Translations under genes and position numbers: made by a program
Assembly (NCBI RefSeq): GCF_032681285.1
Contig: NZ_CP136337.1
Location: 136,977 to 200,976, forward strand
Direction: 5' to 3'
From: Piscinibacter gummiphilus
Lineage (GTDB): Bacteria > Pseudomonadota > Gammaproteobacteria > Burkholderiales > Burkholderiaceae_C
Length of the DNA: 64,000 nt
Notes under the pieces: model-generated
What the model saw: only the letters and a program-made list of their open reading frames with translations
Databases searched by the model: none
Told to the model about the DNA's origin: nothing
Shown here: piece by piece, positions 25,429 through 26,301 of the stretch
Layout of the letters: each line of letters opens with the position of its first letter
Position numbering within the stretch: position 1 is the first letter of the stretch

Positions 25429-26301
25429 ATGAACTTTCCCCGCGCTTCCCGCCTGATGCAGGCCGCCGTTCTCGGCGGGCTGATGGCCGTGTCGGCCGCC
25501 GCCACCGCCCAGACCAACCCCTACGCCCGCGGCCCGAACCCGACAGCCGCCTCACTCGAAGCCAGCGCCGGCCCGTTCACCGTGCGCTCGTTCACCGTGA
25601 GCCGCCCGAGCGGCTACGGCGCCGGCACCGTGTACTACCCCACCAACGCAGGCGGCACCGTGGGCGCCATCGCCATCGTGCCGGGCTACACCGCACGCCA
25701 GTCGAGCATCAACTGGTGGGGTCCGCGCCTGGCCTCGCACGGCTTCGTGGTGATCACGATCGACACCAACTCCACGCTCGACCAGCCGGCCAGCCGCTCG
25801 TCGCAGCAGATGGCCGCGCTGCGCCAGGTCGCCACCCTCAACGGCACCAGCAGCAGCCCGATCTACGGCAAGGTCGACACCTCGCGCATGGGCGTGATGG
25901 GCTGGTCGATGGGCGGCGGCGGCTCGCTGATCTCGGCACGCGACAACCCGTCGCTCAAGGCCGCGGCACCGCAAGCCCCGTGGAACAGCTCGACCAACTT
26001 CTCGTCGGTCACCGTGCCCACGCTGATCTTCGCCTGCGAGGACGACAGCATCGCCCCGGTCAACTCGTCCGCCCTGCCGATCTACGACAGCATGTCGCGC
26101 AATGCGAAGCAGTTCCTCGAGATCAACGGTGGCTCGCACTCCTGCGCCAACAGCGGCAACAGCAACCAGGCGCTGATCGGCAAGAAGGGCGTGGCCTGGA
26201 TGAAGCGCTTCATGGACAACGACACGCGCTACTCCACCTTCGCCTGCGAGAACCCGAACAGCACCCGCGTGTCGGACTTCCGCACCGCGAACTGCAGCTG
26301 A
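25429..26301 (+). CDS. PET hydrolase (PETase), poly(ethylene terephthalate) depolymerase
   Basis: A 290-residue secreted polyesterase, nearly identical to Ideonella sakaiensis PETase as I remember it (same length, about eight substitutions). It cuts PET to MHET and terephthalate. Residues 1-27 are the signal peptide. The triad is Ser160 (GWSMGGGG), Asp206 and His237; Tyr87 and Met161 form the oxyanion hole, and Trp159, Trp185 and Ser238 line the cleft. Both disulfides are kept: Cys203-Cys239, the PETase-specific one, and Cys273-Cys289. Relative to the remembered sequence I read K95N, S121A, S136T, A152S, A171R, N172D, D186N and N205D. It is single-gene, with AGGAG upstream and a terminator downstream, and lies inside the IS1071 element. 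Confidence 0.96.

Follow-up and report, generated by a model that had tools for sequence, protein, structure and literature searches.

A PETase gene within an IS1071 composite element on a plasmid-type contig of Piscinibacter gummiphilus, and near-identical DNA in Ideonella sakaiensis 201-F6

Where did IsPETase come from, and how could a PET-growing bacterium arise only decades after the manufacture of PET began? What does a PETase gene surrounded by insertion sequences in another genus contribute to an answer? The window analyzed here is a stretch of 64,000 nucleotides of Piscinibacter gummiphilus that constitutes the final 64 kb of contig C2 (200,976 bp) in an assembly of three contigs (completeness 99.77). 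We propose, with a probability of about 0.88, that IS91-family elements captured PETase together with the adjacent pyrC, that the piece became part of an IS1071 composite, that this composite entered the plasmid-type contig and, in a related form, the 201-F6 lineage, that the type PETase would itself be an import, and that the core of the window PETase was later recombined.

The PETase gene is an open reading frame of 290 codons whose product finds its best PDB matches in the full-length IsPETase entries 6qgc and 6eqd (residues 1-290). The protein is identical to the 201-F6 gene product at 282 of 290 residues. The original prediction of about eight changes is exact, and the changes are K95N, S121A, S136T, A152S, A171R, N172D, D186N and N205D. 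The triad S160-D206-H237 and, as read residue by residue, all four disulfide cysteines (C203, C239, C273 and C289) are the same in both enzymes, as are W159, M161, W185, S238 and R280 and the pair S214 and I218, which marks an IsPETase-type PET hydrolase. A chance match is excluded for the PETase gene and the IS1071 copies. Judged from its sequence, the window enzyme should act like IsPETase as a secreted Ser-Asp-His hydrolase and, together with the MHETase gene of the same genome, would yield terephthalate and ethylene glycol. PETase-type matches occur at five places in the host and at one in 201-F6. The host chromosome holds three further PETase-like genes (70%, 51% and 53%) beside a 95% copy, and PETase-like loci lie at C1:951469-952296 (L006) and C1:2308180-2310122 (L007).

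The gene lies within an element of 22,064 bp that runs from an intact left repeat at 15528 to an intact right repeat at 37591 (Table 1). The outer repeats (~110 bp) belong to IS1071 copy A on the left and to the last IS1071 part, which lacks its own left part, on the right, and they share one orientation. GACCA is found on both sides as the 5-bp target duplication of an IS1071 composite transposon, a match with a chance of 1 in 1024 by itself, and joining the flanks without the element yields an ORF that reads through the insertion site. The IS1071 composite with target duplication is thus as first described, and given the duplication and the read-through ORF, the element probably moved as a unit into the contig. 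IS1071 is present as two complete copies of 3204 bp and three 3' parts, and it is annotated at 100% identity in the eight best plasmid records among the PLSDB matches listed. ISPps1, whose name is taken from the annotation of PLSDB records, occurs inside the element once with a full transposase ORF and twice as parts. Its Y2 transposase and zinc-binding domains (PF04986 and PF14319) are those of the IS91 family. The inverted piece between copies A and B is the reverse complement of 30648-32149. The alpha/beta hydrolase of the cargo has an exported-looking start and is a possible second ester hydrolase.

Table 1. Features of the IS1071 composite element and its insertion site (window coordinates)
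Feature	Positions	Strand	Evidence or remark
Left GACCA target duplication, 5 bp	15523..15527	.	direct reading
IS1071 copy A, complete; Tn3-family transposase ORF 15661-18588, 975 aa	15528..18731	+	
Inverted piece with the N-terminal half of the ISPps1 transposase and a C-terminal fragment of dihydrolipoamide dehydrogenase type	18732..20233	-	
IS1071 copy B, complete, inverted	20234..23437	-	
ISPps1 (IS91 family) 3' part, abutting the block	23438..24291	+	identical to 32232-33085
Putatively captured chromosomal block	24292..29357	+	98% to G008 chromosome, 92% to host chromosome
Lipase-chaperone-like ORF, divergent from PETase	24457..25212	-	PF03280, E 3.8e-16, part of profile
PETase gene, 290 aa	25429..26301	+	ORF translation, PDB match, residue alignment
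Tract with all 23 differences from 201-F6	25650..26041	+	alignment
pyrC, dihydroorotase	26411..27511	-	TIGR00856, 457.5 bits (cut-off 293)
AraC-family regulator	27490..28344	+	PF12833, E 1e-16
3' end of second, unnamed IS91-type element	29358..29837	-	reading of translated end
IS1071 3' part	29838..30647	+	
Dihydrolipoamide dehydrogenase-type fragment and ISPps1, full-length transposase ORF 31293-32897	30648..33085	+	also present in 201-F6 C129
Cargo: dehalogenase-like DNA, alpha/beta hydrolase 33796-34605 (+), peroxiredoxin-like DNA	33086..35592	+	common to 201-F6 C129
IS1071 3' part, 98% variant	35593..35851	+	
IS1071 3' part, right inverted repeat intact	35851..37591	+	
Right GACCA target duplication	37592..37596	.	

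Is the carrier a plasmid? Among ten proteins of C2 scanned, TraG-, TraN-, TraC- and TraD/TrwB-type proteins were recognized by their TraG_N, TraN, TraC and TrwB/TraD domains. The contig therefore encodes both type IV secretion and coupling proteins, which are among the traits of a conjugative plasmid. What had been said to look like a plasmid is a 201-kb contig with F-type conjugation genes, which would probably be capable of self-transfer. In PLSDB, the left flank of the element has two matches at 10% coverage, and the right flank, the block and the unnamed IS91-type end have none. Because no plasmid relative of the flanks was found there, an empty target site cannot be demonstrated in a relative. 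Megablast with the block alone likewise gave no PLSDB match, and the best tblastn match of PETase reached 48.6%. PLSDB has 191 records with IS1071 and 75 with a match to some part of 30648-35592, a match that falls in the ISPps1 part in each of the 20 listed; IS1071 is so common and the ISPps1 region so widespread that sharing these alone means little. The best plasmid place for the cargo at 33086-35592 covers 14%. Among viral contigs, 13 stretches matched a pattern and none encodes a relative. Host contig C3 (142,941 bp) contains a TctC-type gene, pieces of ISPps1 and, besides four complete IS1071 copies, one that is split.

The block between the two IS91-type ends comprises the end of an AraC gene, the lipase-chaperone-like ORF, PETase, pyrC and a second AraC gene. 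An ORF at 28510-29295 was dropped as a gene since it behaves unlike a coding frame. The lipase-chaperone-like ORF has a pN/pS of ~0.25; it is conserved in the chromosomal copies and might be a foldase of PETase. PETase-type genes occur in 7 of 11 genomes of the host genus. The block is found at 98% on a 5.25-Mb contig of a relative (G008) and at 92% on the chromosome of the host itself (G000, C1:952302-957348), and parts of it are found in G009 (86%) and G006 (77%). The surroundings of the block in G008 and G000 align over 11.4 kb including the block, and over another 1.7 kb. In the chromosomes, a second PETase-like gene (~70%) comes after these genes, and the window block stops about two codons into it. 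IS1071 was searched in six genomes and found only in the host and 201-F6, two others showing matches of ~40-55 bp. Since the block is chromosomal without IS1071, and IS1071 is restricted to the host and 201-F6 among these six, the block is not an IS1071-flanked part of the ordinary chromosome in many strains, an outcome that would have refuted the original prediction. Capture from a chromosome, as originally proposed, agrees with a chromosomal block in the host genus that lacks IS1071. PETase and pyrC would hence be chromosomal genes of a Rhizobacter/Piscinibacter-type lineage. Given the 92% copy in the host, the plasmid copy might have arisen by recent duplication of the chromosomal PETase region. 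However, the plasmid copy is far closer to G008 (98%) and 201-F6 (99.4%) than to its own chromosome, and it encodes S214/I218, whereas the chromosomal gene encodes H214/F218, which makes such a duplication extremely improbable.

The closest relative of the block belongs to Ideonella (Piscinibacter) sakaiensis 201-F6. A scan of genome contigs gave 11 loci, one of them at 97% in 201-F6 (L018, contig C74 of 4023 bp) and the next at 84%. Window positions 24292-28101 align with C74 (NZ_BBYR01000074.1, C74:214-4023) over 3810 bp without a gap at 99.4% and 23 differences, and identity is 100% outside a 392-bp tract of PETase. The window thus shares with the IsPETase locus the upstream region, pyrC and the start of the AraC gene; it differs in eight residues of one tract and lacks a further 192 bp on the left that 201-F6 keeps. 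However, 201-F6 (G064) is classed in another GTDB genus than the host, and the rpoB genes of the two are 89.8% and 88.5% identical in two pieces, compared with 95.7% between G000 and G008. The predicted movement between bacteria is borne out by a near-identical block in two genera. Among 399 family genomes, a sample without G006 and G009, 371 match the block at E up to 1e-100, and beyond the pyrC part the matches listed comprise only G000, G008 and 201-F6.

A further part of the element is also shared. Contig C129 of 201-F6 (5009 bp) corresponds to window 35633-30625 at 99.96%, and both of its ends lie inside IS1071. The first 20-21 bases of C74 match no native sequence and are the reverse complement of window 29358-29378; C74, a further 201-F6 contig (C104) and the window at 29358 have one common IS91-type end. 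Neither a PLSDB record nor another database named the IS91-type element at 29358-29837. The additional 192 bp of C74 abut this end, whereas the window copy is cut at the left of the block by ISPps1. C74 stops at window 28101 without an IS, and 28102-29837 was not found in the 201-F6 draft apart from the 21-base end. The 201-F6 version is therefore related and not identical to the window element. One continuous element in 201-F6 is inferred across two contigs, C74 and C129, that the draft does not join. IS1071 of 201-F6 is also found at an end of contig C5, where it adjoins a mercury-type region with MerA-like, EAL-DUF3330 and Tn3 transposase genes (L123, C5:85540-88525). Repeats such as IS1071 can misassemble, and an assembly or contamination artefact might have joined PETase to IS1071. 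However, both junctions between IS and block lie inside one contig of the nearly complete host genome, and the right-hand IS end recurs in two contigs of 201-F6, so that such an artefact is very improbable.

Which lineage owned the block? In a pyrC tree of 26 sequences, from which the partial copies L011 and L012 were dropped for length, the window and C74 group together (100), joined successively by G008 (99), the G000 chromosome (99) and the pair of G009 and G006 (100; support of the pair, 97). This clade does not include G001 and two MAGs, which belong to the same GTDB genus or bear the name Rhizobacter; support for their placement is low. The second pyrC of 201-F6, on contig C42 (78%), takes another place in the tree, apart from the C74 copy. 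Because its pyrC groups outside its own lineage and a second, distant pyrC exists, the C74 copy appears to be foreign to 201-F6. The shared 3.8 kb and the 5-kb element piece across genera, together with the IS91-type ends, indicate that the type-strain PETase is most likely itself an import on this kind of element. The original prediction took the I. sakaiensis gene to be chromosomal; a place in ordinary chromosome is not supported, given a 4-kb contig beginning at an IS91-type end, the 5 kb shared and an adjacent pyrC that groups outside the lineage. The reverse course, in which 201-F6 was the original owner and the window strain received PETase from I. sakaiensis, would account for the near-identical DNA and for the window copy being the recombinant one (see below). 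However, the block pyrC groups with G008, G000, G009 and G006, the block sits in aligned chromosomal surroundings in G008 and G000, and C74 begins at an IS91-type end. An ultimate origin in 201-F6 is thus very unlikely, although the gene may have passed from that lineage to the window at a late stage. Import into 201-F6 is the reading that we retain.

All 23 differences from 201-F6 fall within the tract (clustering bound 4e-21); 14 are synonymous and nine nonsynonymous by codon-path count. At 20 of the 23 sites G008 has the state of 201-F6, so the window tract would be the newcomer. Could mutation and selection within the gene have produced this cluster? Nine of the changes are nonsynonymous, and one of them, D186N, is reported as improving. 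However, the majority are synonymous, none falls in the remaining 3418 bp, and all window states except that at 25722 (22 of 23) are also seen in one or more other homologues in the comparison table. Moreover, P0003 is the closest protein over residues 74-206 (96.2%) and has seven of the eight diagnostic residues. Mutation and selection are therefore very unlikely as the source, and recombination with another PETase allele is the preferred reading. Two candidate donors were rejected: the host's own chromosomal copy agrees at only 9 of 23 sites and its second PETase at only 7. P0002 represents yet another, third allele: it is identical to the window and 201-F6 outside residues 87-205 and different within, including residues 87-92 near Y87, an oxyanion residue. 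Among 59 close homologues, N95 is found in 58 and N186 in 50; K95 is seen only in 201-F6 (with its constructs), and D186 in 201-F6 and P0002. The available text of PMC10975908 states that D186N raises thermostability and PET degradation. This substitution is natural in the window PETase, which appears to be a recombinant that carries it.

Residues 214 and 218 separate the mobile genes from their chromosomal relatives. S214/I218 is described as unique to IsPETase and as raising activity when introduced into other PET hydrolases, in the sections of PMC10080609 available. Of the aligned sequences, only those of the window, 201-F6, P0002 and P0008 (tagged IsPETase) combine the two residues. In 102 database proteins of 200-330 aa, with P0010 left out, H214 is found in 96, F218 in 75, M218 in 21 and I218 in five. 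The two nearest chromosomal genes (G008 and G000) encode H214/F218 with the same codons. Five nonsynonymous and two synonymous changes separate the mobile genes from G008 over codons 206-290, compared with none and three between G008 and the G000 chromosome (p 0.17 for this comparison); the imbalance points to adaptation on the branch that would lead to the mobile form. Between 201-F6 and G008, PETase has seven nonsynonymous and four synonymous changes, compared with 2 and 14 in pyrC (Fisher p 0.011) and p 0.03 against pooled pyrC, AraC and the chaperone-like ORF, an excess that is suggestive only, given small numbers and several comparisons. Because G008 is not the immediate ancestor (pyrC pS 0.05), capture may have come after the changes in codons 206-290, and a chromosomal gene of the S/I form may have escaped sampling.

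The second half of the pathway shows similar surroundings. In C104, the ORF at 1404-3311 encodes an MHETase identical to PDB 6qz2 (residues 1-603), accompanied by TctC-, PdxA-, IclR- and LysR-type genes. The IS91-type end of C104 truncates a gene for a conjugative coupling protein (PF02534), of which only the start remains. As C74 and C104 share this end, mobile ends of one kind would border both the PETase and the MHETase locus of 201-F6. The MHETase locus recurs on the host chromosome at C1:1289283-1300291 (96.2% over 11 kb), with its own MHETase, a Rieske dioxygenase and a PdxA-type gene. Identity between 201-F6 and G000 is 97.2-99.8% in the first 6.5 kb, which include MHETase, and 86.4-96.2% thereafter. 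With 96.2% identity over the 11-kb locus, we do not propose that PETase and MHETase were transferred together in one event. This MHETase occurs in one of 11 genus genomes (G000 only), and the next best protein reaches 48%. Trb-type conjugation genes (TrbI, CagX, TrbL and TrbE/VirB4-type) adjoin the host locus at C1:1277976-1285898, because of which the locus looks like part of an integrative conjugative element. The genes of this host locus are presumably tph genes. A tph operon with MHETase is described in I. sakaiensis in the accessible part of PMC8556258.

How does the element compare with known systems? It resembles the IS1071 composite catabolic transposons, as on the Pseudomonas sp. ADP plasmid NC_004956, in which IS1071 is 100% and the ISPps1 region 98.5% identical, but differs in its cargo, a PETase. 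The cargo of that plasmid presumably serves atrazine degradation. An IS1071-framed catabolic composite transposon is reported in Comamonas KF-1 in the text available of PMC3746432, and mobile phthalate/tph clusters and IS1071-framed catabolic genes are among the findings of the literature consulted, which includes PMC12224614, PMC8556258, PMC12424806, PMC13040137, PMC10975908, PMC11938130 and PMC12976661. In PMC7666164, a marine conjugative plasmid carries an MHETase-like gene, Mle, within a composite transposon of the Tn7 type; this is likewise a plastic-related hydrolase on a plasmid transposon but differs in enzyme, transposon and host class. The original prediction held PETase transfer to be undocumented. 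That stands for IsPETase, which none of the accessible texts on I. sakaiensis, PETase or MHETase and mobile elements places on a mobile element; it does not extend to PET6-type PETases, for which horizontal transfer within Vibrio was proposed from a pangenome comparison, with no vehicle given in the part of PMC9679969 available. A literature search for PETase with IS1071 found no paper. The vehicle belongs to a known kind of element; its cargo and the connection with the type PETase are new within the reach of these searches.

These observations suggest the following course. PETase and pyrC would have started as chromosomal genes of a Rhizobacter/Piscinibacter-type lineage, from which IS91-family elements may have captured a 5-kb piece. 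The piece would then have been built into an IS1071-bounded composite element that moved as a unit into this plasmid-type contig, while a related form entered the lineage of 201-F6 in a different genus. The PETase core of the window would have been replaced later by recombination with another allele. A bolder proposal, to which we assign even odds, is that PETase was made on the mobile element: a chromosomal His214/Phe218 polyesterase of a Rhizobacter/Piscinibacter-type bacterium was taken up by IS91/IS1071, gained S214/I218 together with N220D and Q274E once it was on the mobile branch, and then reached I. sakaiensis, where an MHETase-terephthalate locus came from an integrative conjugative element. 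Both loci would have lain beside the same IS91-type element, and recombination would still be producing new alleles, for example with D186N.

The data thus supply a vehicle for PETase in the IS91/IS1071 element, an inter-genus route and naturally occurring forms of this enzyme. They also provide a chromosomal gene, at 98% DNA identity and in the His/Phe form, that is closely related to the ancestor. The findings suggest that PET depolymerization can spread on plasmids, as other pollutant pathways do.
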